A program made the position numbers and the translations under genes. A DNA stretch of 64,000 bases from Antedon mediterranea (Eukaryota; Echinodermata; Crinoidea; Comatulida; Antedonidae). How positions within the stretch are numbered: the first letter of the stretch is position 1; the number at the start of each line of letters is the position of its first letter. Location: contig NC_092678.1 in NCBI RefSeq assembly GCF_964355755.1, forward strand, positions 12,310,922 to 12,374,921. Direction: 5' to 3'. The notes below the pieces were generated by a model. The model was not told the origin of the DNA. It did not search any database and was given only the letters and a program-made list of their open reading frames with translations. Below are positions 22,571 through 63,714 of this stretch, piece after piece.

Positions 22571-22579
22571 GAAGCTGCT

Positions 22580-27224: not shown

Positions 27225-27366
27225 TAATATAACATGGATAGCATGCAGATAGCTAAAATAGGCATAAAGATTAATTGTAGGCCTATTTATTCTCATATTC
27301 TGTATTTTACAGTTGTTTTTTAAAATTTTCTTTCATAAGGTAATGATGTTCTTTCATATTTAAATA

Positions 27367-30938: not shown

Positions 30939-33900
30939 GTAAATAGAGTTCTTTTTCTTTTTTTTTCAATTCCCAAATTATTATTTTGTCTTTTCCTGCA
31001 TTGACAAATTATTAGGAGATTTTTTTGTTTTTTAACTTTTTCAGATATTTTTGCAAAATAATAAACCATGAAAATAAATGTTAGAAATTATTTATTACTG
31101 TCTAAAGGCTAAATTATTTCAGGCTTAAATATTTCTTCAATATTTTTTTACAAACAGTTTAAAACAAATCTGAATTCAAATAAAGAATTTAAATGTTCTT
31201 TAGTGCAGTTAGCACTTACATTTGTCTTTTATTATGTTAGATGTACCAGATTTAAAGAATGCCAACAGTCTCCCTGGTTGCCAAGCAACAGTGCACAATG
31301 CATTGAGATTACAAATGTTGAACCACCTTTTATCCCTAAAACTTTTGAAAATATCAGCGTGAGTTGTGAAGAACAATTGATTAAATTTGTTTTCTAGGCT
31401 TTAATATTTAATAATAAAGAACATGCCATTGGCTGGAGAATGTTAGCACTACTAGTACAAACTATATCTATATTATCGGCACATCTATATTAGGTTCAAG
31501 CCTATCCTTAGCCATAGTAATTCTGGACTCAAACTGGCTGGAGATCCAGTGTACATCTGGCTTGTGATGCTTGTTCACAAAGGGAGTTATCCATTTATAT
31601 AATAACAAGTTTTAATATGTATGCAACTTCATAGCTTAAATGTGTTTATCCATAGATTTCTCTAACTGTTGAGCAACTTCCTTCTTTAAAAATCAGCCAA
31701 AATTATAATTGTAAATTTGGTGACTTTCAATCATCCGCAATAAAAGATGGAGAAACATTGACTTGTATTTCACCGCCTTTATCACATGTACCACAGATAC
31801 CAACCAGCCAAGGTGAGTTAAACATTATGCTAATAAGCTTTACTTTCTGTTTTATTGTTCTTTATTTAATAACTGTAGCAGTGGCTGTACTAGTATTTCA
31901 CATATGGTATGCATTCTTCCCAGTAGGAGGTGTATACTATTAATAGCTCATGAGGAAATAGGTTTTAGTACACACTATGGAGTACAGAAATCATGCACTC
32001 ACTACTCTACATTTGCAACAAGGGGGATTCCCTAAAGTGACCCTTGTTTTAACCTAGTGATATCTTAAGCTCTGTCTACACTACCAAACCAGATTAACAA
32101 AACAAATATGGTAGTGATATGCCCAAATATGGTAGTCATATCACATCATTGTCTCCATATATGGGCACATCACATTTTTTGGGAGTCATTTGCACCAACT
32201 ATTTAAACCTATCTACCTCTGGAAAAAAAAAAGAAATTAAATATTACATTCATGTTTTTTGTAGAGATTTTTGTATTTAATTTTCAATTATGTTGTTTTT
32301 ACCCATAAAATACATTTGAAATTAAGGCCTAGGCCTACACAGTAGCTAACCTTTAAATGATTTGTTTACAGCTTCTGTAGATGTTATTTTATCAGTTCAT
32401 TCATCCGTAACTGATGTTGATTTTGTTTCCACTGACTTCACATTCTTTAACTGCAGTGCCATTACTTCGTAAGTATTGATTAACTCATTTTTTATAAGAG
32501 TGTGGAATAAATAAAAATGTAAAAATATTTCACTACTTTAACTATTAAATTGTAAACACACATTTTCTAAAGATAACTAAAATAAAAGGATCTGAAATTC
32601 AAGTGACACATTATTTTTAAGGAAATGAATGTTTATTTAGTTTCTACTGTAGCAGGTTGCAATGTACATAATTTGTTATAATCTCACTGTCATCTTTACC
32701 AGGTTGCAATGTACATAATTTGTTATAATCTCACTGTCATCTTTACCAGGTTGCAATGTACATAATTTGTTATAATCTCACTGTCATCTTTACCAGGTTG
32801 CAATGTACATAATTTGTTATAATCTCACTGTCATCTTTACCAGGTTGCAATGTACATAATTTGTTATAATCTCACTGTCATCTTTACCAGGTTGCAATGT
32901 ACATAATTTGTTATAATCTCACTGTCATCTTTACCAGGTTGCAATGTACATAATTTGTTATAATCTCACTGTCATCTTTACCAGGTTGCAATGTACATAA
33001 TTTGTTATAATCTCACTGTCATCTTTACCAGGTTGCAATGTACATAATTTGTTATAATCTCACTGTCATCTTTACCAGGTTGCAATGTACATAATTTGTT
33101 ATAATCTCACTGTCATCTTTACCAGGTTGCAATGTACATAAGTTGTTATAATCTCACTGTCATCTTTACCAGGTTGCAATGTACATAATTTGTTATAATC
33201 TCACTGTCATCTTTACCAGGTTGCAATGTACTTAAGTTGTTATAATCTCACAGTCATCGTTAAATACTTAAGGAAATCAAATACAATATATTGATAATAT
33301 TGTTGTAATGGGACAGTTGTAATTGTGTAATATGGTACTGTACAAAGCATACGAGATGTGTTCTTTAAATTTCAAATATATTTTGAATTCTGAACATAAC
33401 AAATATTAATATAGCTGTGACGGAATTAATAAACAGAGTCAAATATTTAAAACTATAACGTGTCAACATTTAATTATTATTGTTTTATTCTTCTGTATTT
33501 TGAAATCAGATATACAATATTTCATTAGATAACCAATACTTAGTTTTAAGACATTTTGCAACAAGGAACTATCAACTCGTCAGTTCTGTGTTGTGTTTAA
33601 TTCATTTGCATTACATTATTTATAATCAAATAAAAGAAAGGTACCCTTAATCGACTTGAGTTTGTAAGGCAATGACATACTATTTTAAATCATCTTTATT
33701 CTTATAATTTGTAATTATGTTTTGAAAGTTAAAATACTAACATCCAACATTTCTAGAAAATCTAGAAAATTCTTAGTTAAACTTGTCAGCTTCTCTTATT
33801 TGTGTTTGCTGTCACTGAAACTAGAACTGTAAACCTTCTATATTATTTGTTTGTTTGTTTGTTTGTTTCTCCTTATAAGAAAAACAAATATGTGAAAATG

Positions 33901-36900
33901 TATGAATTGGACTCTTGAAATTGAGAAAAATATAAACTTCATCAAGATACGTTTGTGCTCAGAATTGTTAAAAAAATACAATAGATCATTATGTTAATTT
34001 ATGCCGTATGTGTACCTTAAAGGGTGTTAAACCATAATGCCCCTCGTTTTGCGTTTTATGTCCTCTGAGGAGTGGAAAATGATTGAAGTATACGATATAA
34101 TTATTCTCTTTATTAGAATAACAACATCTTTATATCGGTGGCATGCGTGTCAAACGGTTATATTACATAATATAATAATGATTGGCACACTTGTAGTGTA
34201 AAATAAATACATGGTGTTTTACTTTTAACAATATTGTTTTGATTTTATTCTCAATACTGTAGTTGTTCTGAATGTGTTTCAAATTTTACTTGTGATTGGT
34301 GTGTCTACGACAACAAATGTACCCATAATGCATCAACATTGTGCACAGCAGACGACAAAATTATTTTGAATGGAAATGTAAGTAATTATGACTTTTTTTT
34401 TTGGTGCTGTATAATCAAATGGAAGCTGAACTTGTATTGCTCAAATAAACACTTTTCGAGACAACATGTTTTAGGCTAATTGTTTTTGGAAGGGCTTGGT
34501 AAGGTGCAAATTGTTGTAGTAATGTTTGCTACCACGGTTCGTAGAGTAACAGTTTACATTTGATCTTCTACTGTTATCAGTGTGAAGAAAAAAACAGAAA
34601 ATTATCTATTTTTGTAATTATTGCATTCAAAATGTTTAATGGCATTATTGTTGAAATATCACTGATAAGCTATTGTTTAAATATGTAGGCAGCATCATCA
34701 CCAAATGGTTTTCAAGGTCAAGGGTCATGTCCACAAATTTATCAACCAAATGGGGAACTTATTCATGCAAATATACGGAAAGAAGTCAGAATACCAATTA
34801 AGAATTTACCAAATGCTACAAAGGTAAACATTTAAAGTTAATAATTTATTTTCTCCATGATACTGAAATAAACTGACCTTTATATTCATTCATGTTGATT
34901 GAGAGTTAATTCACTCTCCACAAATAGACTTTTTTAACTCTTTGAGTTTTACTGGGTGGAGTTGTGGCATGGTGGCTATGATGCTTGGCTATCAATCCAA
35001 GGTTCCTGACATATTTCAGACCTCTACTACCACTACTTGTACTCTTTGTTTATGTAGAGCATCTTGTGTATGTTTGTCTTGTGAACGGGATTGCCACCTT
35101 TAAAAGGATTGTGAATGAATTATGGTTTATGCTTATGGTTATCCTTGGCAATTTACCTAAATTTATAAAAACAAAACAAACACTACAGTCATGGTAAGAC
35201 TTGCAGTACATGATTTAAACGGACCCATAATGTTATTCCATTCAAAATGTTAATGGAAAAGAAGTTTACCCAGTGAAAGACTAGGTCATTGAAACAATCT
35301 TCCTGTGTGTGTTCTTTTATAAAAACATAAGTGGTTTATAAAAAACATTCAAGAAACCTGAAGCGTAGTAGTGAGATATGTGTGTGAGATTTCAGTCTAC
35401 TGTAATCAATCAATTCCCACAAGAGATGGCATAGAGTATTAATATAGAATTTTGTGAAGTGATGAATTAGGCAGGATAATTCAATTCAAAACCTCTATCA
35501 ATGTAGGAAAACATCAACAACCTAAAATTAGAAGTTTTTATTTGTTTGTCTCTGTTTATTAGGTAAACAACTATGAATGTGAGTTGGAAATTGAAGCACA
35601 AGTCGGCAGGATTCCAGCAACAGTTGATGAATCAAACTCAAATATCACATGTTCACAATACACTGTAAGCATCTATATATAAATTTACGTAAGGGCAAAA
35701 TTCGGTAAATCGCGCGTTATTTCTAGAATGTTTACTCGATGGTATGTAAAGTTGGTTCGTACTTTCGGTACTGATTTTAACCACCTGATGTAACCATGTT
35801 TACTAATTAAATTGAATTCGATAATTAGTTATTGACGAATAAAACGAGTTTTTAGGTTCAACGATTTGCTCCAAATAGGGGTGTTTTCCGATCGTGGTAT
35901 ACACTGTCTAATGGATGTCCAATTTGAAAAATACACGCACACAATAATACGAGGACACTTCGCATTTTCCTATCTCCTCCTACGATAATTGTTTTTAATA
36001 GCTGAAAACCGGTTGAACAGTTCGAGTACAGCATCATAATCTTGAAGACAGGCCGATTTTCTTTAAAAAATGCTATTTTGATAGATTTAATATACGTTTT
36101 TACAAATGTATTGATTTGTGATGAATGGAACATTCCAAATTATTTGGTTTAACCATAGAGGCATAGATTTAGATTTATGGGCTCCCTTGGAGAATAAACA
36201 TAAATAGTATTGCAATGATGTACAATACTGTTAAGGTATTAACCACTTTTGATCGCAATTTGAATCGCAAATTTCTTACTGTGAGTGTTGGTACTGTTAG
36301 ATATATATAAGCAAAAATATACAAATAAACTTTATTACTGTGAGTGTGGGTAGGCCCTACTGTTAGATTATAAACATATAATATACAAATAAATAAACGT
36401 TATTACTGACAGTTGCTTCTCAACATTTGTATTAATTAATAATTTAAAAATATATAAACGTCGTAGTGGTGTATCGTTACATGTACTTTACTATTTCAAT
36501 CGACTATGACAGTGAGAGTTTTAACAAAGTACTAAATCGTAAATGTTTTACTGTCTTTAGTGGTATATTATTTATAGGCCTATAAAACATTAAAAACAAT
36601 ATTTCGTTACTAAGTAGATAAGAATATATTTTAAAATGTTTCCTCTTTGTACCTATCTTCTTCCCCCATCCCTCAACCCTTAATGTTACATACAAAACAC
36701 AAATTGGGTTTGTTTAAATGAGTCCAAATAAAAAAATTTGACTCATTTTGTTTCTCTCTCGGAAGTAATTCCCAGGGTGCTAATTTTGGTTGACTACATA
36801 AATCATCGTGTATATTTATTCGTTTCTGTAAACGACAATGTATTATAGTCCTGCAGTACGTACATTTGAAATCTCCATTTTTTTCTCGCTGGAAAATACT

Positions 36901-39900
36901 GTGTATTCGAGAACCATCTGTGGGCACGACCTAGATGGTACGCGAGCGAAGCGAGCGTGCCATCTAGTCTATAATAAATTTACGTTAGGGCAAAATTCGG
37001 TAAATCGCGCCTTACTTCTAGTATTTTTACTCGATGGTATATAAAGTTGGTTCTTACTTTCGGTACTGATTTTAACCACCTGATGTAACCCTGTTTACTA
37101 ATTAAATTAAGTTAGATAATTAGTTATTGACGATTAAAACGAATTAGGTTAAACGATTTGCCCCAAATAGGGGTGTTTTCCGTGGTATACACTGTCTAAT
37201 GGATGTCCATCTTGAAAAATACTCGCCACAAAAATGCGAGGAGGCTTCGCATTTTCCTATCTCCTCCTACGATAATTGTTTTTAATAGCTGAAAACCGGT
37301 TGAACAGCTAGAGTACAGCATCATAATGTCGAAGACAGGCCGATTTTCTTTTAAAAAAAAACTATTTTGATAGACTTAAGATACGATTATACAAATGTAT
37401 TGATTTGCGATGAATAGAACATCCCGATCTCTCAGTCTGCCAGAGTTTTGTTTAACACAAGTAGGTAAATGTATGAGCCCTTGGTTTAACACATACGGTA
37501 GGTAAATATGGGCCCTTTGAGAATAAACTTGTAATACTTTGACAATACTGTAAATACCTATTAACTATTTTTGGTCCTCATTTGAATCGAGCATTTCTTA
37601 CTGTGAATGTTCGTACTGTTAATGTAATATAAAAATATATACAAAAAAACTTTATTACTGAGATTGTGGATAGGCTTCACTGTTAGATATACAAATAAAC
37701 TTTATACTGACAGTTCCTTCTCAACGTTTGTATTAATTAATAATTACCAATAATATAAACGTCGTAGTGGTGTATCGTGACATGTACTTTAATATTTCAA
37801 TCGATTATGACAGTGACAGTTTTAACAAAGTATTAAATCGCAAATGTTTTACTGTATTTAGAGGTATATTATTTATAGGCCTATAAAACATGGAAAAAAT
37901 ATTTCGTTACTGAGTGGATAAAGAATATATTTAAAAATTGTTCCTCTTTGTACCTATCCGCTTTCCCATCCCTCAACCCTAATGTTACATACAAAACACA
38001 AATTCAAAAATTTGGATTTTTGTGGTAAGTTTCTCCTTCGGAAGTAATTCCCAGGGTGCTGATTTTAGTTGACTACATAAATCATCGTGTCTATTTATTC
38101 GTTTCTGTAAACGACAATGTATTATAGTCCTGCGGTACGTACATTTGAAATCGCCAGTTTTATTACGCTGAAATTACTGTGTATTCGAGAACCATCTGTG
38201 GGCACGACATAGATGGTTCTAGTTTTAGCAATTTTTTTAGTCACTAAATGTGAATAGTAACACATTTTATTTAGATGAATTAAAAAATCCAACGTCAATG
38301 AGATTTTAACAAGTTTATTAGATTTACGTCGATTCCATCCATATGATGATGTTGATCTAAATCAAAGCTAATTTTAAACGGACATTTTTATAAAATTGAC
38401 ATAACAAATGCATTAGTTTGCTTAGCCATCAAAATTTAAAAAAAAGTTTGTTATAAATGGTTTCCATTCATAATAATATCAATAAATGTCATGCTATTGC
38501 ATACATAGTGCCATAGATGGTTTATTAAATTTTAGAAATTAGATTTAGTAAAAATATAGATTAATGGTTTATGTCCTAGATTACGGTTCTGATCATATGT
38601 CCAAATGTTTCACTACAGCATTACCGTATAGTTTTCTAAATAGATATTAGAGTATCTTGTGTTAATATTTTTCCAGTAAACCTGAAACATAAGCGTGTCA
38701 GTTTTCTGTAATTGCAATGTGCCTAAAATTTAATTGTAAAAAGCGTAACGTGTATTTCATTTTAGTATGACTACGCATCTAAGGACAAAAAGGAAGTAAA
38801 TGTATATATTAGAGTATTTTGGAATGAGAATGTAATTGAAAACACTTATCAAGGTTGGTTTCAATTGATTGTTTATATTGATAAGAGTTACAATGCAGCT
38901 ATACAAATGCCTGGTTCCTTTTTTAACATATACCAGTTTTAGTATAAATCAACATACTTCTATTATAGGCCTAAAGCTCTATCTACAATATCAAATTAGT
39001 TTGATAAAAATGTGTGATTTGCCAAAATATGGTAGTAATAATGGCATCATCATGTCCATAATGGACACATGAAATTGTTATGTCACATACAGTTTGATAG
39101 TGTAGACAAACTAGCTTGACAAAAAAGTTTATGTGTCCAAATATGGTAGTGACTATCATGTCCATAGGCACATCAATTGCCAATTGCATGGAACTCCATT
39201 GCCACCTGGGATTTATGCATTTTATGCGAACTCATGTTTTACATTATCTTGCCATTTAGCATTAATACTGTATATCCTTTGGTAAGCTTCAACATTTATA
39301 TGACAGGTGAGATAAAACTTATTGTTAATATTTCTTGCATTGTATATCTATTTACCAGTTACATTGTACAAATGTAGTGTTCAACGTCCAGACTGCAGTC
39401 GATGTTATTCAATGAACACCACTAGGTCAGCACTTGATTGTGTCTGGTGTACTGGAGACCAATGTTCCTACAGTCCATTCTGTTCATCAATAGTGAATGA
39501 ATGTCCATCACCTGTTATTATTCAGGTAATTGGAATTATTTTTCTTCTACTTCTATTCTATTTTAATCTTGTTTCAGGGAATAAATTTGATTGAAAACGC
39601 GAATCTGAAACTGAAGAACAAATATTTTACTACAAGTCTAAATCATTTCTTAAGTAGGCTTTTATGTTTGTCATTTTTTTTTCAGATTCTTCCCATCTCT
39701 GTTGCTACAGTAACTACTCAACCAGAACCTGATTTCACAGAGGTCATTGAACTATTCGGAACTGATTTTGGACAGATGATGTCAGACATTTACAGCATTA
39801 CGATAGATAACAAAGAATGTGTAATAGTCGCTGATGGATTTAACATACATTTACAAAGGTATTTATTGAGAAAAACTTAAATAATATTAAACAATAAAAT

Positions 39901-42900
39901 ATAGGTACATTCTTTGGTTATTAAATTACATTTTTATTCTTAATAATAGTATACTGTAGTAAATTTTAGGGGAAATAATTGAAATATAATTCCTTAAGAA
40001 TATAATATAGAACAACAACAAATAGGAAATATACTGACAATTATTGTTAGTTTATTTCCTTTTGTTGCTGTGCAGTTTAGAGGTTACCATTTCCAAGTTG
40101 CTAAATTATTATACTATTTATTGATATAATTCGCCTAGTTTATATCCCTCGTTGAAATAACCTTTATCAACGCAATTAAAATTGTTACATTTTAAAATTT
40201 ACTATACCTACACAGTGTGAAATGTAAAGCTCCTGTGTTTGATAGTTTCTCTCAACATGACGTCATCATAACTGCCCAAGGAAAGACAAGTGCACCTATA
40301 GTCTTACTCTATCAGGTATATATTTTTTAAATAATGTAAAAAAATATTGTTTGTATGAATGGCAGAAAGTCAAACTAGTTACATTTTAATTAACATTAAA
40401 CACTAAAATATATTTTACAAAACTATTGTAGTACGAAAAGTTATTTATACGATTTGTTTGAATATAATGAAATCAGTGTTTGTCTTTAAAATATTAAAAA
40501 TAAACATAACTTGTATTAAATGTAATACTGTAGATGTTGTATTGTGTAGAAAGATAACGTGTTTTTATTTTAGAATCCAATTATATCTGAGTTGAGTCCA
40601 AGGTTTGGCATAAAAGCTGGTGGAACTACACTAACATTCAGTGCATCTAATCTGAACACTGGGAATGACTTAATGGTATCTATTGATGGAAGTGAATGTT
40701 TTGTTACAGAGTAAGAAACACAAACTCAAAGTAATGTATTGATAAGAAAAGGCTAATCTATTAAATGAAATTATAATAAAGTGTTTTTCGTCGCTGCAGT
40801 AATGTTACATTTATTTCATCTGCTTCTCTGCCAATTATTCTATAATAATCTCAAAACTGTATAAATGATTATGTTGGTTATTTTATTTTGTGTCAATTTT
40901 TGTGTCAGTATCAATGAAAACCAGATAATGTGTACGACATCAAACTATACAACATCTGGAGCTAAAGTTGCAGTAACAGTTACATTTGGAAATGCTGTTA
41001 GAGATGGTCCTACCTTCACTTACACTACAAATCCCACAGTGACTGACTTCCAACCTAATAAAGGCATTCAAGCGTAAGAAGACATACATTGTGTTCTCAA
41101 TTATAATATATGTATTCGTTCATTGAATAGACGATGGAGTACTGCAAAGTATTTTTCTATTACTACGCACAGCTTCAGTAACAATCAGTAATTGATTGAT
41201 CAATACATTTATTGAATTGGTTGCATACCTATCTAAATTGTTAGGATATTTTTTTTCTAAACATTCTCCTAAAATGTATGATACTGTAGTATATAAATAT
41301 TTAAAATTAAACAAGACAATGTATATATTTTAAAATAATTTAAATTTATTGAAATTAAAAATAACGTTTTTATTGCAGAGGTGGTCAAAACATCATAGTG
41401 ACAGGAACAAATTTTCAATATGTACAGAAAGCACAGATGTTTTTAAATAGTATATTAACTGAAAATGTAAGATTTAAATTACGATTGGATAAATTTCAAT
41501 TGAAAGAAAGAACACTTAACTACTAATATTAGGGCATACTTACATATACCCACCATTAAGTACTTGGTAATGCCAATTTATTTAAAACTTTCTTCTTCAA
41601 AATGATTCTATAATTTTGTAGAAATACATATTATATCGAAGAATATTATATGAAATAATTGGGCATGAAACAAAATAATTTTTTTTTCTTCCCAGAACTG
41701 TATAATTCTGTCAAATGAGAATATGGATTGTAAAAGTCCACCAGCTGATCTCTCCACATCAGGTAGCAGACGACAGGCAGACCAGGAAGTTTTACCTTTG
41801 ACATTTTCATTTGATGATTTTGTTCCAACATTGAACGGTGATTTCGGATTTTCCGTTTACTCTAATCCAGTTTATTATCTCTTTGATAATAAGTCTTCTT
41901 ACGGAGAGAAAACGGAAGATGGTGACTATAAATATGACAACAAAATTGACGAGTTCATGATTCTGATGGTAATTATAATATGTGACATTTTTTTATTTGG
42001 TTTTGATTTAAGAGTTAGAATTCATCATTGTAAACCATTTAAAGCTGTTCGACATAGTCAGTTTTTGTGGATATGATGCCGATTGGGCTTCTTTCCAGCC
42101 ACTTGATGGTTTTGATTTTTAGTGTCAGGAAAAGAGTCCTATATTTCTTCTTGTTTAATTTGTAATAACAATTGATAATATTATTCTGATTGCCTGTAAA
42201 TATTTACAAGGTTTACAATTAAATCTTGCAAAATTGGACCACCAGAAACACTACATCAATAACATCTTAATTGTCATAAACTTATTCAGTTTCAAATTTC
42301 ATATATGAAATTCTTATTGGTCAGATGTTTTGCCCAATTCTGACGTAACTGTAAATTATTCTCATTACAAGTGCGAGAGAACATAACTGACCAATAAATT
42401 CAATACATTGCTACATTGGTTCATATAAAAATGCAATGGCGTTTTAAACTTGATTATAGTTTTGAGAATCAGTATTTTATTTATACCCAACATTAAAAAA
42501 AAGCCTGTATTTACATAATAGGGGTCTGACATCAACCTTGCTAGTAATGTTGAGGATTTTTAAGTGTTCATTGGAAGTGTTAAATGCACTGTAAATTCAA
42601 TAACACGTACAGTAGTTCTTGTTGAAATACCAGATAAGGAACCTAATCCAGTAGATGGTGAAGATCATCCTATTGTTAAGGTAGATCGTGAGCTCACTAG
42701 ATAATACTTTTAATATTATATATAATATTTTTATAATATTCAATAGTCCGTAACCAATAATGTCAAAATCACAAATTGTTTTTAAACGAACTCATCAACA
42801 TTGTAATATTAATTTATTTTAATTTTTAAGATGAACTACGTTATTTATGTTGTTCTGTTTTAGTGGCTGTTTAGACTTAGGTTGAATAAGTAAAACAACG

Positions 42901-45900
42901 TACAGAACTTAGAGACAAAAAAAGTGTTTGTCAAAATCCTATTTTACGAAATTCTAATTTTAGACTTTGATAGGCCTACTTAAACATTTTTTAATATATT
43001 CATACATTATTACTACTAGATTGTTTTTAACAAAAAATGTACTACAGAATGTAACCAATGTTAGTGTTTTAATATTGATTGTCTCCAAATAACTTTAGAT
43101 CCGTCATGGAAATCTAAAGTTCACTTTCGGTGCAATAAGATATGTAGGCATTGGATTGTCTACCACCGTCATAATTATTATAATTACGGTTGTTGTGATT
43201 GTGGCTATCACCATTACAATCATACTTGTCTACTGGCGTAGATCAAGAATACTCGACAGACAATTGGAAGAAACAACAGTGAGATTTTTTAGAAAAAGTA
43301 AGCTAAAAAGCATTATAGATAAACTCAAACTATTGATATCATAAGGGGCTTGAAAAGTAAAAGCTAAATTTGGATATATGAGTGATGTAAAATATAACTG
43401 ATTATTTCTACAAAAATGTCCCATAAACTAAGAGTAGTGATTTACTTTTTGAAATTAGACGCATTTTGAATTACTATCGCAAGTCTTCTAGAAACGAGTT
43501 TTAACAAGTTTTTGTAATAAAACAAGATAATTAGAGTGCCTATAGGAATACGCTACTGGAAAACTAATATGCACAATTAATCCAAATGTTTTGCAATTTG
43601 TAGCGCCGAGTTTAGTGTTTATGTACTGTATATAGATGATGAGGATAGCATACCGGCATTATAATGAAACAATCGATTACACATAAAGCTACATTCAGTA
43701 TATACGAAAGTCAATAACTACAATCTAAGTAATTGTTAATAAATTCATTCATATTTAGAAGAAGAAAAAGAAAAGGAGTTTCTAGGAATAGATGACGATA
43801 ATTCAGAAGTAAGGTATATGGGCATAGTACATGACAGCATAATAGCAAGAGAATTTAGTCAGAGTAAAGAGCATTATGTACAATGTATGCTGTTTCTTGG
43901 ATGTGAGATGACTCCAGTAATGCAAGAAAGTGGATATGTAAGATATTGCTACTTGCTTGTGATTACACAACGTTACAAAACATTCAATTAACGCGGGGTG
44001 TTACCTCAATGATTAATTGTATTTTGTAAGGATTTTGCAGTATTTACACCATGTCATCCGAAAGGAAGAAAGGAAGTAGGCAAATTGTTTACATTTAAAA
44101 ATTCTCAACTTTACATAATCTTTTTTTAGAAAATTATAGTTTTACATTTATTTACAAATACGTACGAGAATACGATATAATATTATAATATTATTACTTT
44201 CATATGTTATGTGGTATTGTTTTATTATTTTATAGACTGAACTGTTGGAAGATCATCGAGGTTTACCTGAACTGGATTTGTTTTTGGACGAGAAGTTTCT
44301 AATGAAAATAATTAACATTTTAGACAATGACTCATCGTTTACATCTGTACAAAGGTATATTAAAAAAAATTGTAATGATTTTAGATTTAGATTTGGATAA
44401 TAAGTCTATGGTTATGATACAATATCGGTACAAACGGTGCAAGGAAGCTGCAATCAGTGTCACTTTTAAGTTACAATGGTTCACGTCTAACTTTGTCTAT
44501 TATATGGTTCTGGTGGCAGAACACGTAAGAAAAACCGTTACAGTCTATTGGTTACTATATAATACTATAATTACGCCTACAATTAATACAAACTTTTATC
44601 TGTTTTACTTTAGGCAAAACTTTTCCGCTTTGTTCTTAATGGCTATGGTTGGTGATGATAAAACAGAATATCTATTTCAGTGAGTAATACTCAGTATATA
44701 CCTTATTAATTTACAATTCTTGTGTATGACGTATGCAAGAATGAACGCTAGAATTGGCAGCACTGACTGACTTAAGCGACAAGATGTAGTTGGAAAGTAA
44801 ATTATCTAAGTCCACAGTAGCAATGATCGTTATACAATTTAAGTTATTATTAAGTAATTCTATGGTTACGCTTAATTCTAATATGTTGTGTGATTAAATA
44901 TTTTAGTATTATGGATATGCTTCTAAGCAAACATATTGCTAACAAAGTGAAGGCCAAAAATGTCAAGTTAGCTTTAAGCAAGTGGGTACAGTTATTTTGT
45001 GTTTTTAATAATTAATTATTAAAACCTAATTTGCAAACGTGTGTTTATCAAGTTATGACATATTACTTTAGTGACTGTGAATGTGAAATATACTTCAATA
45101 TGTACTTATATACTTCTTATATACTTCATATACTTTTTATCTATTGCTATATTAATCAAATGTAATATAGCAATTACCTTCAATTACAGAAACGGTGAAA
45201 CTGTTATCGAACATATGATATCTCACGTGATGGCATTATGCATGTATAAATACACAATGGTATGTAAATTATTTTATACATTAATAATTATACCTACATA
45301 TCATTATTCTTAATAATTAAACTAATGATGTCCTAAATCAAGTCGGTTTATTATATTAGTAAGTAATATTATGTGATTTGGTTTACGTAATGTAAAATTA
45401 GCTTGGTTTGGGTTATTTTCTTAACAAAAGATTTTCTTTCTAAATAATATAAGTCTCTTTTTTATTTGTAACAAATTTGACTCTTTAATAGGAATATCAA
45501 ATAAAGTCCATCAATCATCAATTAATCAATCAATCAAATAAGATCAGATCTAAAATAACGTACTGTATATAAATATATTATGTGTGTTGTATACTACTTT
45601 CACTTCAATTTTGCAGAAGTATGTATCAGGGCCTCTTTTGCAACTTGTAGATGCTATAACTACGAGAATAGATAGTGGTGCGGTAGACGCTGTTCATCAT
45701 CATTGTCAATATTCTTTAGACGAGAACTGCCTTCTGCCAATTGATGTTACTGGAGAGAATATAGTAAGATATCTGCAAATGTTTTGGAAACATTTGAGTA
45801 TATAACATATAACACTGAAGCATAATGCTACTTGCAAACAATTATTTTAATACATTTTTAGAGCCCATGACAAGTAAATGTGTATATAATAAAAATGTTA

Positions 45901-47845
45901 AAGAAGGTCAGATAATCCCGCAAATATTTAATTATTAGCCAATCCGATAAATACTGAATTTCCACACAAATTCAATGGCATTTTTTTTTCAATTTAGAAT
46001 TTGAGTTTGGTAGTTGATGAGGAAAAACAAGAGATTGTGAAAGTAAACAGTTGTGATACGCTATTTCAAGTAAAACAAAAACTGTTAAATGTTATGTTTA
46101 AGGAACAACCTTTTTCAAAAAGACCCAACGTTTCATACGTTCAGTTAGGTGAGTACACCAACAAACAAGCAATTTAATTGTATCTTGCTCCTTTATTCTG
46201 TAGATTTCAATTATATAAATACTGTAATAACCTAATTTTTTTTTCTAAATCTAGAATGGAGAGTGAATGTAGATCAACGAATTATTTTACAAGATACCGA
46301 TTTACAGACAGAAAGAAAACTAAAAACAATTGCAGATTTTGGAGTAATATTACTATAGTATTTTTTGTTTTGTAATATAAATTAACTGTTAGAAAAATGT
46401 ATTAAGCCTATAATAATAGGCTTACTAGGTTGTGTACAGGCCGGACGTCAGTGGACACAAGCTTAACATGACGCATGCACCTTAATTAATTAAAAAAAAA
46501 TACTTTTCTATACCAGCAGGTTAGCAAACAAATAAATCAATCACTACTCGGATCGTAAATTTGAAGAATTACTTTTTTTTCAGATTCAAAATAAAGCAGT
46601 GGTAGCGTTTGTAGACGTTTGGAAGGAAGATATCAACGCGTCAGACCAGTATGATACAATTAAGCAACCAATAGTTGCTAGACATGGTAATAATGATAAT
46701 ATGTATTGGTATACATACTACATTCCAATTGAACCTTACTAATATATATATAAATCAATGATGTTGCGTAGCACTGTGTAAATTATATATAAATCATACT
46801 GTAAATTATAGAAACAGTGCTCATATTCGGAACATGATCTCATAATCGCGTCGAGCATAGCTCATTGGCGAAAGTTCCATATTTTTTAGTTGTATGAAAA
46901 AATGTTTCTGGCTGGATTCGAACCTGCAACCTCTCGCTTACAGGGCGAGTATCATACCACTAGACCACAGAGCCATGTATGGTATTATCACAGATTTTCA
47001 CCCACCAGATACATTCTCTCATACAACAAACGCCCTCACAATCAGTGGAGGCTTAACAAGTCAGAATAAATTCCAACTTTAATTCGCAACGGTTTTTTAA
47101 ATAATATTGTGTATATGTAAATCAATGATGTTGCGTAGCACTGTGTAAATTATATATAAATCATACTGTAAATTATAGAAACAGTGCTCATATTCGGAAC
47201 ATGATCTCATAATCGCGTCGAGCATAGCTCATTGGCGAAAGTTCCATATTTTTTAGTTGTATGAAAAAATGTTTCTGGCTGGATTCGAACCTGCAACCTC
47301 TCGCTTACAGGGCGAGTATCATACCACTAGACCACAGAGCCATGTATGGTATTATCACAGATTTTCACCCACCAGATACATTCTCTCATACAACAAACGC
47401 CCTCACAATCAGTGGAGGCTTAACAAGTCAGAATAAATTCCAACTTTAATTCGCAACGGTTTTTAAAATAATATTGTGTATATGTAAATCAATGATGTTG
47501 CGTAGCAACATCATTGATTTACATATACACAATATTATTTAAAAAACCGTTGCGAATTAAAGTTGGAATTTATTCTGACTTGTTAAGCCTCCACTGATTG
47601 TGAGGGCGTTTGTTGTATGAGAGAATGTATCTGGTGGGTGAAAATCTGTGATAATACCATACATGGCTCTGTGGTCTAGTGGTATGATACTCGCCCTGTA
47701 AGCGAGAGGTTGCAGGTTCGAATCCAGCCAGAAACATTTTTTCATACAACTAAAAAATATGGAACTTTCGCCAATGAGCTATGCTCGACGCGATTATGAG
47801 ATCATGTTCCGAATATGAGCACTGTTTCTATAATTTACAGTATGA

Positions 47846-47899
<54 letters not shown>

Positions 47900-50800
47900 T
47901 TAATATATTTCAACTTTAAAAAAAATCAGTTTCTCCTTATTTTATGTAATTATAATTGTTCAATAATAAATTAATAATATAAAAAAACAAACAATACTGT
48001 TTATAAAGTCACGGTCATTTATACTGAAGATTTCTTATTGGTATTACAACAACAAACAGCTTTATTCAGCCAATGAGTGGCAGAATAAACCAATTTATTT
48101 GTTGTTGTTGTTGTTTGTGCTATTGTTTTATTATTGTTTATGATGTAACTTTACTTTTTAAGAAACTAACATCTACCAAACATCAATCAATGCAGATGGC
48201 ACTTTCCACATTGTGAGTGATTTTAGTTCAAATACTTTCAAACATTTACAGTCACCATTAATTGAATAAACAACAAACAATTGATATAAATAAATCTTAT
48301 TGCTTATTGGACATCTGGTAATGAACTGTGAACTAAATATTCATTAAAGTAGCTTTACGCTAGTCGATAATTTGACTACACATCAGTTACTGTTGGTCGT
48401 TTAGTAGGCGTTCTAGTTAAAAAAAATATATTTAGCATACATTGCTTGTCATAACTAGAGACTTGGCAAGTGTAGTTGGTCAGTTTTGATTATTTTGAAA
48501 TGAACTTTTTTTTTAGTTGGAAGGAAATGTGTACACGGGTGCGTATGATGCAATGGACGGCGAGAAGCCAAATATTGATGAATCCATCTTTGAAAGGTTA
48601 ACTGAAACTAAGGTAGGAATAAATAAAAACAACATTTTTTGATTTAAACTATTTGAAACAGTTGGTTTTTAATAGGATGCAACTTGACATGCATATGAGA
48701 CGTATCACTCTAATGTATCTTGTTGTTGGTCAAACTTGTATTGTCCGTCCATTGTGTCCTCGAAACTTTTTGTATGGGAGTAAACCCGCTTTTATTGTTG
48801 TTCTGCATATATCGAACATCATTGGTTTGGTTTTCCTTAATATTTTACAGTAATAAGTATATTATTATCTCTCATGTCCACAGCATATTTACCAACAGCA
48901 TGTTGACTCCATAATGAATAATGTATTCAGCTCATCATCGAACAAAATCCATCTACCGCTATTTGTTAAATATCTTTTTGATTTTCTGGATAACATGGCG
49001 ACTAAGCATGGTGTTAGTATCAATGAATTGAAGATATGGAAAAACAACAGGTATTGAAATTGCAATACATTGTTAGATAATGATATATTTAGGTTTTACT
49101 CAAAGCTCACAATGGTGTATCTACGATTTACATCGAAGAATTGGCTCCTAAGAGGTCTGATTATTTAACATTAAAAGAAACAAGGTTAAGAAATTTAAAT
49201 TATAAATATTCAAAATTCAAATTAAAAGTGTAGGCCTAATAATTTATGTTTATATATGAGCGTCTATTTCTTCTTTTATAATGAGCATTTTCCAAATTAT
49301 TTGTCTTACAATTTCAATATCAGCACGTATTTTTTCCATTTTCATACAATGTAATCAAAATAGCAAGAAAAATCAGAAGTGGACTAGATCAATAATCATA
49401 TTTTTATCCTTTTTTAGTTTAGCTGAAATGTTTTGGTTAAGAATACTGAGAAACCCTGCTTATGTCTGTGACATTCAACAAACGCCCCCTATTGATATTA
49501 CTCTCGGTATCATCTCTACTGTTTTCCGAGAATCTTGGTCAATTGAGCTGTTTGGTTTTAAAAAGGTAAAACGCAAAAGTCAATGTATTTATTTTTGTAT
49601 TGTATGGCTGCGTATTTTAATGTGCGACGACATCTTACCGAGACCGTTTAATGAATATCAGTTTACTACTTTAGCTTCTGTTCAGAATCATATTTGTTCA
49701 TATTATTGTTTTAGTTTTATATTTGCACGATTTTGTTGAAATTAAGAACTAACTGTAGACCTACAGTTTGTCCAAATCTGAAATATCATAAATACACTTT
49801 CTTTTGATTATTTGGATTCTAAACCGTCACATTCGCTTCACTGTTTATTCATGTAGACCACCCTACAGTTTCAAAATTATAATTAGGTGATCATTTAGAA
49901 TAAAATGATCACCTATTGTTATTGTATGAAATCTTTATTAGGTGATCATTTAGAATAAAATGATCACCTATTGTTATTGTATGAAATCTTTATTCTTCTT
50001 CTTATTCTTATTATTTATTTCTCTCTGTACAAATTTGTGTAACAATTATCTCAAAAAGTTTAATGTAAATGATTACCAAAATTTTACAATGTCGTTCAAA
50101 TACTGTAACTTAGTCCTAATAAGCTTTTCAGCGTGATCACTCATCCATGACGTCGCGTATACGCCATTTTGTGAAATCACATTGTCAATCATATCTCCAT
50201 AATTCATTATCACATATTAATGAAATTTACTACACGTAAACTTCAGGTCAAAGGTAAAAGTATTAGCAAATAAAAAATTGCGTGTTTCAAGGTCATGCGC
50301 GTGAAATCGCGCATTAAAATTTTAAAAAGCTCAAAATTAAGTTTTGATCAATTTAGAGCATGAAATAGGCCATTTGCGTGTTTCAAAAAATTACTGCGCA
50401 AAAACATATTTTTGGCTACGCGAGTTTTAAAAAGCGTCAAAAATAAAATTTGATGTATACATCACATTCTACTCACAAACCTTAGTACATTCTCCAACTT
50501 TGAGTCCATTCCGACTTAAAATAACGCTATACGAGCACGTTAAACATGACAAAATGCGCACATTAAATGTACAAAAGTGCTAAAAATGGTAAAAAGTAGG
50601 GCCTTTTTAAAATGAATATAACTTTTCAGAATGAAAGGTGACCCCAATTTTTTTAACTTATTATGGAAGCCAATGAGTTGTATAAATAAAATGTATATAC
50701 ACAGTAGACGTACAAAATGGTATGACGTCATCATTTGGCCACATGAATTTTGAAAATAGGGGTTTTTCCCCTTTTGTCATAGACCACCATATTCAACAGA

Positions 50801-53800
50801 GCGCAACTCGCTTATCTGTTATCGATTTTCTTTTAATTTTTAACACATTCTACCTCAACCAATTATGTTACTTATAAGTTGCCAATATTTTCTTTTGGAT
50901 AACGTTATCATGTCTTAAAATTTAAATAACGGTGGTTACGTAATTTTACCTACAACGTATATTTGAATACCTTACAGCTCTTCTGAATTAAAGTTGACCT
51001 CGATGTTTATAATTTAGTATGATAGCTGGTGAAATGTAGATATGAATTCATACAAAAATTAAGCCTATCAGATGTTGTGACGTTATCATATGGCCAGTTG
51101 AAGTTAAAAAGTAGTTTTTTCATCTCTTTCGTAAAAGTTATACAATTTTTAAAGAGCGCGCACAGCCCTTCTACGTGCCAAATTTTCTTCCAATTGTTAT
51201 ATTTTATTGCTAAATTCATTATTTTTCAATATTGTTGTCCACAAGTTTTTTTTGATAATGTCATCAGTGCCAAAAACTTAGAACATGATGTGTGTCCGTA
51301 ATTTCACCTATGCTACACTGTATATAGATATACACAGTACAGTATATACTGTACATATTGTATTATGGCATATAATAGGCACAACTCAGCACTATAAGCG
51401 TATAATAGGATGGCATACATCAACATTTTCCGATTGTATGTTAACATACGTGCATGTTTCAAAAATATGAATGTCAATAAAATGATAAAAATGATCACCT
51501 ATAATTCGTCAAAGTGACGAATTAAATTCTAGTTATTATTATTTTTTTTTCTTTTTATTGTTTCTGTACACTATTTTGTGTAACAATTATCTCAAAAAGT
51601 TTAATGTCAATGATTACCAAAATTTCAGAATATCTTTCAAATAATATAACTTAATCCTAATCAGCTTTCCAGCGTGATCCTTCATCCGTGACGTCATTTA
51701 TACGCCATTTTGTGAAATCACATTATCAATCATATCTCCATAATTCATTATGACATATTAATGAAATTCACTACAGGTAAACTTCAGGTCAAGGGTAACA
51801 ATATTAGCAAATAAAAAGTTGCGCGTTTCAAGGTCATGCACGTGAAATCGCGCGTTAAAAATTTAAAACGCGCAAAATTAGGTTTTGATCAATTTAGAGC
51901 ATGAATTAGGCCATTTGCGCGTTTCAAAAAATTACTGCGCAAAAATGCGTTTTTGTGCGCACGATTCTTAAAATGCGTAAAAAATAAAATTTGATGTATA
52001 AATCACATTCTACTCACAATCCTTAGTACATTCACCAATTTTGAGTCCATTCCGACTTAAAATAACGCTATACAAGCACGTTAAAAATGACAAAATGCGC
52101 ACACTAATTGTACAAAAGTGCTAAAAATGGTAAAAAATAAGGACTTTTAAAAATGAATATAACTCTTCAGAATGGCAGATGACCCCCAATTTTTTTAACT
52201 TATTATGGAAGCCAATAAGTTGTAGATACAAATGTATATACACATTAGACATACAAAATGGTATGACGTCATCAAATGGCCACTTGAAATTAAAAATTAG
52301 GAATTTTTTTCTTTTTGTGTGGGTTATCACATTCAATAGAGCGCATCTCCGTTATTTGAGCCCAATTTTCGCACAACTTTTAGTATGTGCTTGCTCAATT
52401 AATTATTCTTGTAATGAGTTGTCAACATTTTTATTTTGATGAAGTCATCACGCATAAAAACTTGAATAACCTAGGTCGTGTAATTTCAGCTACACCATAC
52501 ATTTGAATATCTTATAGCTCTTCAGAATTAAAGGTGACCTTAAAGATTATAAGTTATTATGAAAGCTGATGAAATGTTAGATATGAATTCATATTAAAAT
52601 TAAGCCTATCAGATGTTGTGATGTTATCATATGGCCAGTTGAAGTTAAAAAGTAGTTTTTTAATTTCTTTAGTCAAGGTTATACAAATTTCAAAGACCGC
52701 GCATTGCGCTTCTACGTGTCAAATTTTCTTCCAATCCTTATATTTATTTGCTCAATTCATTATCTTTCGAAATTGTCATCTTCGAGTTTATTTTGAAAAT
52801 TCCATCATACCAAAAAATTAGAACACGATATGAGTCCCGTAATTTCACCTATGCTACACTGTATATAGATATACAGTATATACTGTACATATTGTATGAC
52901 ACATAGGTAGAACTTAGCACTATAGTGTATATGCAATCATGTCATAGGATGGCGTACATCAACTTTTAACGATCGTATGTTAACGTACATGCATGTTTAA
53001 AAAATGTTAATTTTATTAAAATGATAAAAATGATCACCTATAATTCGTCAAAGTGACGAATTAAATTCTAGTTAATATTTATATCTTTATACATATTATT
53101 ATATCATGCAAGCAGTTAAAAGCTACCGTACTGAGTTTAATAATTATTTTGTAATATTTCATCAGCCATTTAATTTAAAAGTCTATTTTTGGTGAAAGTC
53201 ATGCCAAGTTTGTTCTTTAGTGCTTTTTTAACTTTCATTCTTTATTTCAAAGAGTTCGCCAAGTCATCGACAGATGTATGTAAAAGAGATTCCACGATAC
53301 CGCCAACTTGTTACTAAGTTCTATAGTGACATCAAGCATACCCCAACTTGTGATCGCATGAACGTTATCGATGAAGTAAATTCTCTTATACAGGTATGTA
53401 CAAAGACTATCAATATTGCTATTTCTCAAAGAAATTAATAGGCATAGGTTGAGGCATATGTCAATATACAAACATTGAAAGAAATATGGTAAAATAATAT
53501 ACTAATACTAATGCTTTTTATTCTCAGCCATTTAGCACATTGTTTAAGAAGTCGAGTGTGTTAGTGAATCTTCATTCATTTACAGATAAATATTTAAGAG
53601 AGGTAAATATAAATAAATTATATACAGATATTTTGATAGTGTACCAGAAGAAAAAGATTTACTGATCTATACACGTCGGCTTTACTATACTGTACTAAAC
53701 AGTTGAACTAATAGTGAACAATTAGAGTACTTCAATCAACACTTTTTCATGTATTAAAATTAAAAGAAGGCTTTCCATTATTTTTATTATCCAATTTACA

Positions 53801-54140
53801 TACCAAATAAAATTAATTATTACATGTATCTTAGTAAAACAATGTGCATTTCCCGTGCAAACATCATTCTGCCTCTAACATTTATCATTTGAGTAAACGT
53901 TGTTAATATTTTAATATTTTAATTAAATATCAGGTTAAAGACGCATTCCTTAAAGGTACAAATAGAAATGAAAGTACTGTTGAAGTTTTTACAACAAAAG
54001 TAAGTAAGTCGTCGTCGTCGTCGAAAGAACAAGCAGCGTATGTCAACTCAGGAATCCAGCAAAGTCGTCGACACAATCAGAAAAGAAGAGAGGACACAGG
54101 TGTGATCATACTTTCTGATGATACAAACGCTGGTTGCTAA
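27367..54140 (+). CDS. Plexin-family receptor, 36 coding exons
   Basis: Plexins are single-pass receptors for semaphorins that steer cell and axon migration through a cytoplasmic Ras/Rap GAP. I assembled 36 exons by hand; all introns are GT-AG, all junction phases agree, and the sum is 5640 nt (1879 codons plus stop), close to the usual 1900-2000. Order: signal peptide (residues 1-26), sema (about 30-470), PSI repeats and IPT domains (about 470-1180), transmembrane segment (about 1202-1232), GAP halves with the RBD between them. ATG 27,367 begins a clear signal peptide. Exon 19 contains an in-frame TAA (42,561-42,563, codon 1147), which as it stands would give a secreted ectodomain. Arginine motifs of the GAP are lost. 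A poly-A signal AATAAA lies at 54,353. The subfamily is uncertain because the sequence is divergent. Confidence 0.92.
29468..30268. mobile_element. Non-autonomous element with 32-bp perfect terminal inverted repeats, plexin intron 3
   Basis: Positions 29,468-29,499 and 30,237-30,268 are perfect inverted repeats of each other (outer end CAGAGCCATATATATAAAG). The 737-bp interior has no conserved protein. Target-site duplications are not obvious. A SINE-like tail (GCGCTTTATAAATCTTATTA) lies further downstream at about 30,630-30,656. Confidence 0.65.
31241..42680 (+). CDS. Plexin exons 5-19: PSI repeats and IPT domains
   Basis: Exons: 31,241-31,358; 31,656-31,812; 32,372-32,468; 34,263-34,377; 34,689-34,823; 35,563-35,664; 38,766-38,853; 39,359-39,525; 39,686-39,858; 40,216-40,315; 40,574-40,710; 40,909-41,073; 41,379-41,466; 41,696-41,968; 42,522-42,680. 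PSI 1 ends in exon 5. PSI 2 is exon 8 (CSECVSNFTCDWCVYDNKC) and PSI 3 is exon 12 (CSRCYSMNT, CVWCTGDQC). IPT domains follow from exon 13 (ATVTTQPEPDFTEVIELFGT). Exon 19 reads GSDINLASNVEDF, stop TAA, VFIGSVKC, a normal IPT strand apart from the stop. Confidence 0.88.
32066..32195 (+). mobile_element. MITE copy (GCTCTGTCTACAC family), plexin intron 6
   Basis: It starts AAGCTCTGTCTACACTACCA and contains two AATATGGTAGT blocks and ATGGGCACATCACA, shared with the copies at 21,882, 25,779 and 38,970. Confidence 0.55.
32653..33263. repeat. 47-bp minisatellite, 13 copies, plexin intron 7
   Basis: The unit begins CAGGTTGCAATGTACATAAT and recurs every 47 bases at 32,653, 32,700, 32,747 and so on to 33,217. 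Eleven or so units are identical or nearly so; the 11th has one change and the last is the most diverged. Each unit ends in a pyrimidine-rich stretch CTCACTGTCATCTTTAC directly before the next CAG, which resembles a 3' splice site. There are no variable spacers, so it is not a CRISPR-like array. Confidence 0.95.
33845..33868. repeat. (TTTG)n microsatellite
   Basis: Five to six TTTG units in plexin intron 7. Confidence 0.7.
35672..36967 (+). mobile_element. Helitron-like element (family A), copy 1 of a tandem dimer
   Basis: It begins TCTATATATAAATTTACG immediately after host A (35,671), only seven bases into plexin intron 10, and ends in CTAG at 36,964-36,967. Just before the end is a long hairpin: GATGGTACGCGAGCGAAG and its near-complement CGAGCGTGCCATC. 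This fits the Helitron rules (TC start, hairpin near the 3' end, CTRR end). No Rep/helicase is present. A 35-residue ORF (minus strand, 35,858-35,965) and a Cys-containing block (minus strand, 36,673-36,927) are shared with copy 3. Confidence 0.7.
36968..38222 (+). mobile_element. Helitron-like element (family A), copy 2 of a tandem dimer
   Basis: It starts TCTATAATAAATTTACG directly after the CTAG of copy 1 with no base between, and ends CTAG at 38,219-38,222 followed by host T. The 3' hairpin is shorter (ACCATCT ... AGATGGT). The two copies differ by many substitutions and small indels, so the dimer is old or formed from two different parents. Head-to-tail dimers are a known product of rolling-circle transposition. 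Confidence 0.7.
38970..39175 (+). mobile_element. MITE copies (GCTCTGTCTACAC family), plexin intron 11
   Basis: It opens AAAGCTCTATCTACAATATC, has AAATATGGTAGTAAT, and includes the inverted end TTTGATAGTGTAGACAAAC, followed by a second partial copy up to about 39,175. Confidence 0.5.
42561..42563 (+). other. In-frame TAA stop within plexin exon 19
   Basis: The codon lies between GAT TTT and GTG TTC ATT GGA in a fully conserved IPT context, where plexins usually have a charged or polar residue before V-F-I-G. The sequence around it is a T5-A2 run. A single base difference would give a lysine codon. Downstream exons keep open frames and consensus splice sites. Confidence 0.75.
43099..43297 (+). 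CDS. Plexin exon 20: juxtamembrane and transmembrane segment
   Basis: The exon begins IRHGNLKFTFGAIRYVG, matching the conserved G-N-L-x-F motif found just outside the plexin membrane segment. Then about 30 residues rich in I, V and T follow (VIIIIITVVVIVAITITIIL), ending with the stop-transfer VYWRRSR and a coiled-coil-like LDRQLEETTVRFF. It starts in phase 0 and ends in phase 1 at GTAAGC (43,298). A frame extending past the donor to 43,344 is intron. Confidence 0.9.
43759..54140 (+). CDS. Plexin exons 21-36: cytoplasmic GAP halves and Rho-binding domain
   Basis: Exons: 43,759-43,937; 44,236-44,354; 44,614-44,679; 44,907-44,981; 45,190-45,259; 45,617-45,763; 45,998-46,148; 46,255-46,343; 46,584-46,686; 48,163-48,212; 48,517-48,612; 48,884-49,050; 49,418-49,565; 53,253-53,393; 53,528-53,602; 53,934-54,140. 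GAP half 1 runs to exon 26. The RBD is exons 26-29 (SCDTLFQVKQKLLNVMF, LEWRVNVDQRIILQDTD). GAP half 2 includes LPLFVKYLFDFLDNMATKHG (exon 32), FWLRILRNPAYVCDI (exon 33) and YVKEIPRYRQLV (exon 34). Canonical LLLRRTES is LALSKNGE here, and LPLRFW is LAEMFW. The last exon has a (TCG)5 serine run and a basic tail not seen in typical plexins. Confidence 0.9.
46904..46974 (-). repeat. tRNA-like sequence in repeat copy 1
   Basis: The reverse strand begins GGCTCTGTGGTCTAGTGG and contains CTCGC-CCTGTAA-GCGAG (perfect anticodon stem, nominal anticodon TGT for Thr) and GGTTCGAATCC (B box). A T run (TTTTTT), usable as a pol III terminator, follows. The acceptor stem has only 5 of 7 pairs and base 33 is C instead of T. 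It is probably a tRNA-derived SINE or pseudogene. Confidence 0.55.
47271..47341 (-). repeat. tRNA-like sequence in repeat copy 2
   Basis: Identical to the tRNA-like segment at 46,904-46,974 in the direct repeat 367 bases upstream. It forms one arm of the palindrome. Confidence 0.55.
47665..47735 (+). repeat. tRNA-like sequence in inverted copy 3
   Basis: The plus-strand mirror of 47,271-47,341, with the same boxes and the same following T run. The three open frames of 62 codons in these repeats are tRNA-like sequence read backwards and are not proteins. Confidence 0.55.
47850..47893. repeat. (TA)n microsatellite
   Basis: About 20 TA units directly next to the palindrome. Confidence 0.85.
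49882..51532 (+). mobile_element. Family B repeat, copy 1 (Helitron/Helentron-like), plexin intron 33
   Basis: It opens with two 55-bp direct repeats, each containing a palindrome (TTAGGTGATCATTT and AAATGATCACCTA). It ends with TGATCACCTAT, the hairpin AATTCGTC-AAAGT-GACGAATT, and AAATTCTAG followed by T. The CTAG end plus hairpin suggests a rolling-circle element. The 5' end lacks a clear TC start, so the class is uncertain. No conserved protein is encoded. Confidence 0.5.
51533..53071 (+). mobile_element. Family B repeat, copy 2, head-to-tail with copy 1
   Basis: It is collinear with copy 1 from TGTGTAACAATTATCTC (near 51,575) through blocks such as GGTATGACGTCATC and ends in the same hairpin and CTAG (53,068-53,071) followed by T. 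It lacks the 5' GGTGATCA palindrome. An inverted, more diverged relative lies at 62,240-63,110. Confidence 0.55.
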
Positions 54141-63307: not shown

Positions 63308-63714
63308 TTAACGACATTTCTCTGTTGATTTAGGAAGTGTTCCCTCATTGAAAACGGAATCACATTTTGCCATCAACTTTGAACATTCAATCTTGTCAGG
63401 CTCATTGTACTTTGACTGAGTTAATCTCAATTTTTTTCTTATTTTTGCGCGATTATTCTGAAACCAGTGTTTTACTTCTTCTGGCTTCAATTCAAGTAAG
63501 ATTGCAAAATGGTTTATTTCTCTTACAGATAAATATTGCTTCTGAGCGAATTTCCGTTGTAGTTTATAAACCTGTTCTCGTGTAAAAATCACGCGTCGTT
63601 TACGCGCTGTTTTTCCTTCTTGGTGCTGTGCGACGGTTTCTGTTTTAAAAAGTGAATTACTTTCACTTTTCATGTAATTCTTGTTTCTTGGTTGGTCAGA
63701 TTTTTTAATTATCA
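63308..63714 (-). CDS. Homeobox gene, terminal exon (divergent homeodomain)
   Basis: The exon starts after the acceptor CTTATGTCTTTTAG and runs 134 codons to a stop at 63,308-63,310. The homeodomain (63,428-63,607) begins ARKRRVIFTREQVYKLQRKF and has F8, L16, F20, W48, F49, Q50, N51 and R53, so DNA contact residues are kept. The recognition helix reads VKHWFQNNRAKIRKK. Helix 1 resembles NK-type domains, but tyrosine 54 of the NK2 class is alanine here. A Lys/Ser-rich part precedes the domain and a 40-residue tail follows. Upstream exon(s) lie beyond 63,714 and probably outside the window. The exact class is unresolved. Confidence 0.8.

Follow-up and report, generated by a model that had tools for sequence, protein, structure and literature searches.

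Does the plexin gene in this stretch of the Antedon mediterranea genome still encode a working GTPase-activating protein (GAP) and, if it does not, what has become of the rest of the receptor? The stretch analysed here (the window; 64,000 nucleotides, C9:12310922-12374921, of a 354-Mb genome in 18 contigs) holds a single plexin gene, complete and on the + strand (~27364-54140). We consider it rather probable that this gene encodes a full-length plexin with a dead GAP domain, set in an array of two mostly head-to-head gene classes, (+) and (-), whose ectodomains are similar and exchanged and whose cytoplasmic tails are maintained separately. The residue losses, their sharing by copies, purifying selection, the array and the conflict between ectodomain and tail histories are each legible in the DNA itself. 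The initial annotation had described a GAP without catalytic arginines at 44907-49565; the array, with its head-to-head pairs of similar ectodomains, and the graded losses across the genome's plexins go beyond it.

In zebrafish PlexinC1 the residues that act on the GTPase are Arg711 (the finger), Arg1001, Asn1005 and Asn1009; both Asn residues contact Switch II, and mutation of Asn1005 strongly lowers GAP activity (PMC3787391). Across species and plexin subfamilies the catalytic arginines are said to be conserved, each of them being indispensable (PMC6597256). By its predicted architecture (Sema, PSI and IPT domains, one transmembrane segment, and a GAP with an inserted Rho-GTPase-binding domain, RBD) and by fold, the window protein is a plexin. 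Its cytoplasmic part comprises sixteen exons (43759-54140) with AG/GT borders save at the stop end of the last, and reads open for 626 amino acids. The fold is preserved, as had been proposed: the spliced tail matches PF08337 (Plexin_cytopl) at 249 bits (cut-off 25) and PF20170 (Plexin_RBD) at 72 bits (cut-off 27). The exons from the membrane onwards are these:

43099-43297, + strand: transmembrane exon (segment placed by eye), AG/GT borders.
43759-44679, + strand: cytoplasmic exons eA-eC, juxtamembrane part and start of the GAP; AG/GT borders, open frame.
44907-44981, + strand: exon eD; AGC (Ser) at 44977-44979 stands at the first Arg, and the final AA starts the next codon.
45190-45259, + strand: exon eE; Lys (AAA), which the first base of this exon completes, stands in place of the second Arg of RR and is followed by NGET.
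45617-46686, + strand: exons eF-eI, GAP segment and RBD.
48163-49050, + strand: exons eJ-eL, second half of the GAP, with KYLFDFLD.
49418-49565, + strand: exon eM; ATG (Met) at 49428-49430 stands at the second catalytic Arg, AGA (Arg) at 49440-49442 at the Asn1005 equivalent, and AAC at 49452-49454 at the Asn1009 equivalent, which is kept.
53253-54140, + strand: exons eN-eP, C-terminal GAP helices and tail; stop TAA at 54138-54140.

Going by the FLR motif of p120GAP, we take the first of the two RR arginines as the finger. Where active plexins read LLLRR:TES (a colon marks the exon junction), the window GAP reads LALSK:NGET, and its second site is SLAEMFW against SLPLRFW, with an identical exon start. 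The RR pair has become S-K, the Arg1001 equivalent M and the Asn1005 equivalent R; the Asn1009 equivalent is unchanged. The register of the first site depends on the alignment: phmmer with plexin-B1 sets RR opposite S-K, and in an ungapped alignment with plexin-A1 RR would face K-N. A phase-2 intron splits the second-Arg codon in every gene whose junction was read, namely the canonical plexin (LLMR R:NES), three other plexins (QVLR R:NEG, QVLI R:NET and QLFR W:TES), the (-) copies of the array (QVLA R:TDS) and the window gene (LALS K:NGE). We adopted the S-K register, and rejected K-N, because intron phase and the plexin-B1 alignment agree. Under neither alignment does an Arg fall at the RR positions, an outcome in keeping with the initial annotation. 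Exons eD and eM, on which that annotation turned, are real, with AG/GT borders on both.

The same S-K and M are present in all six (+) copies of this genome, and a sequencing error or an accident in one copy is therefore unlikely. The Asn1009 equivalent is likewise Asn in 6/6. The domain could in principle be active by another route, for example through the Arg that occupies the Asn1005 position, four residues beyond the lost second one, or towards some GTPase that is not Rap; that Arg (49440-49442) and the height of the profile score speak for such a route. We regard it as very improbable, since the residue is Arg in five of the six copies and Ser in the other, the position is the one whose mutation strongly lowers the activity of the zebrafish protein, and, going by sequence, the closest Arg residues are 46 positions ahead of the finger and 41 beyond it. 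These data strongly suggest that GAP catalysis is lost in the window gene, such that its product cannot speed GTP hydrolysis on Rap. By the defining Arg and Asn residues, which were looked for and found replaced, the predicted protein lies outside the active RapGAP plexins.

To place this loss among the plexins of the genome, we scored 86 candidates with a plexin profile and obtained 57 matches, all on C9, although lack of a match elsewhere does not prove absence. The canonical plexin at C9:5.82 Mb keeps all five tested residues (RR, R, N, N). For other plexins on C9 the readings are RR/R/T/N at 3.44 Mb, RW/R/T/H at 5.99 Mb (two stretches at 5.985-5.999 Mb, treated as a single gene) and IR/R/Q/H at 2.46 Mb. 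In the array, the (-) copies have AR/K/Q/H (SKFW in 5/5 copies, AR in 5/5 plus one fragment), and the (+) copies have SK/M/R/N, except that one shows Ser in place of R. The IR and RW plexins, which lie outside the array and keep the second catalytic Arg, are possible intermediates in GAP loss. There is also a stray profile match at C9:1.966 Mb.

Such a gradation (RR/R, RW/R, IR/R, AR/K, SK/M) also suits a plainer account, in which these are ordinary lineage-specific tandem duplicates with a dispensable GAP, ectodomains that are alike through one old capture or routine gene conversion, and no paired role. A published expansion of starfish plexins, eight Plexin-B genes included, points the same way (PMC6374515). 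We hold this account to be possible but somewhat doubtful, for reasons that come from the tails and from the Sema exons.

In the five other (+) copies the splice borders of eC-eP are all consensus and the frames are open; the eA and eB borders are consensus in all (+) copies, and so are the transmembrane exon borders in the three of six copies where they were read. In one (+) copy the stop codon is missing from its aligned place, and the frame ends at the codon after it. Across the (+) core exons the ratio of nonsynonymous to synonymous divergence (dN/dS) is 0.16-0.49 over 15 pairs, with a pooled ratio of the corresponding site proportions (pN/pS) of 0.29. A binomial test on three chosen contrasts among the (+) copies gives p 1.3e-4 with site numbers of 912 and 243 (computed separately, 914-917 and 244-247), and serves as a guide only, as the contrasts share inner branches. 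In the (-) class (5 copies, eight exon pieces) pooled pN/pS is 0.16, with a range of 0.09-0.25 over 10 pairs. Because these ratios are low, both tails appear to be maintained by purifying selection rather than decaying neutrally, so that mere degeneration, as ordinary duplication with a dispensable GAP might lead to, does not describe them.

The same constraint bears on two further explanations. One is that the copies are pseudogenes, or assembly duplicates in which haplotypes were placed side by side. Some copy pairs are only 2% apart at silent tail sites, and marine invertebrates are often highly heterozygous, which would favour haplotypes. All cytoplasmic frames and splice borders nevertheless read intact, the substitution pattern is far from neutral, and the Sema exons of the same (+) copies differ at a synonymous divergence (dS) of 0.23-0.37 in 14/15 pairs; we consider this explanation extremely improbable as a whole. 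A decoy or ligand sink, which the initial annotation had offered as one outcome, would bind a semaphorin-like ligand without signalling. The missing catalytic residues and the presence of an ectodomain agree with it. A pure sink has no need, however, of a constrained cytoplasmic part that is complete down to a class-specific C-terminal tail common to 6/6 copies, and we think a decoy improbable. A stretch particular to the class ends the (+) tail (exon eP, 53934-54140) and carries a YVNS motif in 6/6 copies, which presumably resembles a Grb2 SH2 site.

The description as a pseudo-GAP receptor has fared better and can be strongly inferred. Neither Arg site survives and just one Switch II Asn does, the protein matches the fold profile, the changes recur among the copies and the tail is constrained. 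Signalling through the RBD, proposed with it, is a possible but weak reading: the window RBD matches its Pfam profile (72 bits, against 97 bits for one joined (-) core), but it is five residues shorter in one loop than those of plexin-A1 and -B1.

We mapped the array by genome searches with the cytoplasmic part and the Sema exon, using order and strand to assign Sema exons and tails to genes. The array has six (+) genes that include a cytoplasmic part (12.285, 12.356 (window), 12.599, 12.713, 12.817 and 12.963 Mb) and five (-) genes (12.20, 12.50, 12.63, 12.74 and 12.86 Mb); there are fragments at 13.85-14.05 Mb. They form five head-to-head (-)/(+) pairs, whose gene starts are 14-40 kb apart; the window gene, as the remaining (+) gene, is unpaired. 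Two (+) genes (12.5757/12.5815 Mb and 12.682/12.684 Mb) have a further Sema exon, itself open in frame; one of these exons lacks its 5' part, and such second exons might be alternative first exons.

The extracellular exons of the window gene are as follows:

27364-28422, + strand: coding exon 1, signal peptide (by eye) and bulk of the Sema domain; open frame, Pfam Sema 30 bits (cut-off 23.7).
28695-29290, + strand: remainder of the Sema domain in about two exons, borders approximate; open frames and paralogue matches, Sema profile on this part alone 22.3 bits, below the cut-off of 23.7.
30826-36300, + strand: PSI-IPT-PSI-IPT exons, borders approximate, repeats between; profile matches on the joined pieces above cut-off for PSI (36 bits), TIG_plexin (61) and TIG_2 (29), and below it for PSI_PlexinA-B (22.4 bits, cut-off 25).
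39361-42690, + strand: third PSI, then IPT exons, borders approximate; paralogue matches, TIG 72 bits, PSI_Plexin-B 26.5 bits, slightly below the cut-off of 27.

Coding exon 1 has 12 more copies in the array, one without its 5' part, and fragments at 13.9-15.2 Mb. A decayed Sema fragment (34% identity, + strand, 26982-27191) lies just 5' of the window gene.

Comparison of this exon with the tails gives the two parts of the receptor different histories. Between classes the Sema exon has a median dS of 0.30 (range 0.19-0.42, 40 pairs; three Sema exons outside the array were excluded from the codon comparison), and within classes the median is 0.32 in 28 (+)/(+) pairs and 0.26 in 10 (-)/(-) pairs. 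By contrast, the cytoplasmic core of the window gene differs from four (-) copies at a saturated dS of 2.4-3.2 and is 37-38% identical to them. The first sharp divergence between the classes comes at the transmembrane exon, with 28% identity in the one (-) gene read across the boundary; before it, one IPT exon of that gene is 80% identical to the window's, and a 39-residue stretch of the last IPT exon matches at 38/39. On the Sema-exon DNA tree a single (-) clade is rejected (approximately unbiased test, AU, p 1.7e-5), and on the cytoplasmic tree each class has 100/100 support, with three rows of each. The (+) and (-) tails as one clade are neither rejected nor established on the cytoplasmic tree (AU p 0.417).

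Within the (+) class alone the two parts also disagree. Median dS is 0.32 for the Sema exon and 0.055 for the tail, an excess of at least 3.9-fold in 14/15 pairs, the exception being window/12.798. Here p12.576 and p12.682 were taken for their genes and not the second Sema exons; using p12.5815x, which is nearer exon 2 of its gene and has a dS of 0.28-0.37 to the other assigned (+) copies, leaves the outcome unchanged. Sema dS without class structure, set against tails that differ to saturation from one class to the other and hardly at all inside a class, speaks against the account by ordinary tandem duplication.

Some comparisons favour likeness between neighbouring partners. On the Sema protein tree there are 4 label changes, and adjacent partners are joined in three units (99/98, 82/98 and a third, weak). 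Adjacent partners are also more alike than other assignments of partners: 1, 2, 2 and 6 of 120 permutations did as well as the observed sum, for four choices of the duplicated exon. A run test on 12 rows, from which p12.684x (without its 5' part) was excluded, found two globally significant tracts, one between the window gene and p12.249, of the same class, and one between p12.682 and the adjacent m12.663. The ectodomains thus read as a single set of close relatives, among which there has been a degree of exchange and of preference for neighbours, carried on two conserved and unlike tails.

Several observations weigh against a dead-GAP plexin in an array of exchanging pairs, and some of them help the plainer account of tandem duplicates. 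Class labels are clustered on the Sema DNA tree, with 2 changes against a mean of 4.2 in shuffled sets; 9 to 12 of 500 shuffles gave a value no higher. On that tree m12.777 is the only (-) copy firmly among (+) genes, with bootstrap not settled. Among adjacent cross-class pairs just one shows a tract of global significance, and the strongest of all tracts is between two (+) genes, so exchange runs between copies of the same class as well. The ectodomains could be alike because a single capture long ago was then duplicated, with hardly any exchange since, and some array copies could be unmerged haplotypes. No gene-wide positive selection was found on the Sema exon, where dN/dS is below 1 in 78/78 pairs; at most, one 30-codon window reaches 1.00. 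No (-) partner was found within the window by tblastn with (-) Sema exons, core and transmembrane exon, and a pair model therefore suits the other five (+) genes better than this one. Further, a triple-Arg mutant of fly PlexB may keep residual GAP activity (PMC6597256), and paired use of the (+) and (-) tails for opposed signals is drawn by analogy with vertebrate paired receptors.

As the likeliest mechanism, one ligand common to both members of a pair would engage the (+) and the (-) receptor. The (+) receptor would then have a non-catalytic part to play: it would serve as a scaffold, or as a partner by which the dimers of active plexins are blocked or titrated, and the pair would set the sign or the threshold of the response; catalysis is described as not the sole output of plexins (PMC6597256). 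Going further, the array might be a non-vertebrate recognition locus, whose head-to-head units show one variable ectodomain through two non-catalytic GAP tails and read self/non-self, gamete or pathogen cues as a balance. We think this unlikely on present evidence. If true, it would make the locus the plexin counterpart of activating and inhibitory paired receptors. A constrained natural family of plexins without catalytic arginines would, for its part, be a natural experiment on GAP-independent plexin function.

Other features of the window fall outside the protein. The intron between eI and eJ holds, at 46745-47855, three repeats bearing tRNA-Thr(TGT), two direct and one inverted and 99.5-99.7% alike, which could form a large hairpin in the pre-mRNA. 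On one side the plexin gene is flanked by a homeodomain (56 bits, (-) strand, 63311-63811), and on the other by an exon with an F5/8 type C domain (68 bits, (-) strand, 7957-8304). What appear by eye to be remains of retroelements of the long interspersed nuclear element type have several open frames, at 2133-4220, 11006-15342, 17159-21066, 22472-24320 and 60223-60864 (the last on the (-) strand). Elsewhere in the genome, a Cys-loop receptor gave 92 matches in a genome search, with dense exon arrays at C3:6.80-6.95 Mb and 37.07-37.60 Mb; this family is not known from sponges, so its presence speaks against a sponge. Searches with COX1 and with cellulose synthase gave no match, and the second negative weakly disfavours a tunicate.

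How does this receptor compare with known systems? The window gene resembles the canonical plexins A, B, C and D in its order of Sema, PSI, IPT, transmembrane and GAP parts, its RBD insert, its fold profile and, compared within this genome only, the intron in the second Arg codon. It differs from those active as RapGAPs in that the finger Arg, its neighbour, the second Arg and the first Switch II Asn are S, K, M and R. Pseudo-GAP domains, such as those of p190RhoGAP, likewise have a GAP fold without catalytic residues, but p190RhoGAP is no transmembrane receptor.

The nearest published plexin precedent among the matches listed would be that of starfish, where a Plexin-B lies beside a Met-LP, a kinase with a full plexin ectodomain, and repeated duplication of such a segment has been proposed (PMC6374515). 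The two genomes are alike in holding many plexins. Unlike the starfish pair, both array partners here have plexin GAP tails and no kinase: no Met-LP-type tyrosine kinase tail was found in the window gene, whose tail matches only Plexin_cytopl and Plexin_RBD. The word 'arginine' is absent from the main text of the starfish study. Among the matches listed from the open-licence literature we found neither a natural plexin without catalytic arginines nor a plexin paired-receptor array, an absence that carries little weight.

The combination of alike ectodomains with unlike cytoplasmic parts recalls the vertebrate immune receptor pairs CEACAM1/CEACAM3, SIGLEC11/SIGLEC16 and CD300A/C; the ectodomain likeness of SIGLEC11/16 is attributed to gene conversion. 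Those receptors are of the immunoglobulin type and have opposed tails, whereas the present ones are plexins with two GAP-type tails whose opposition is putative. With such head-to-head pairs, alike in their ectodomains and distinct in their tails, the paired-receptor principle would reach the plexins and become testable in an invertebrate. By structural likeness, the predicted layout, with two different degenerate GAP tails, is a variant of the known paired-receptor arrangement.

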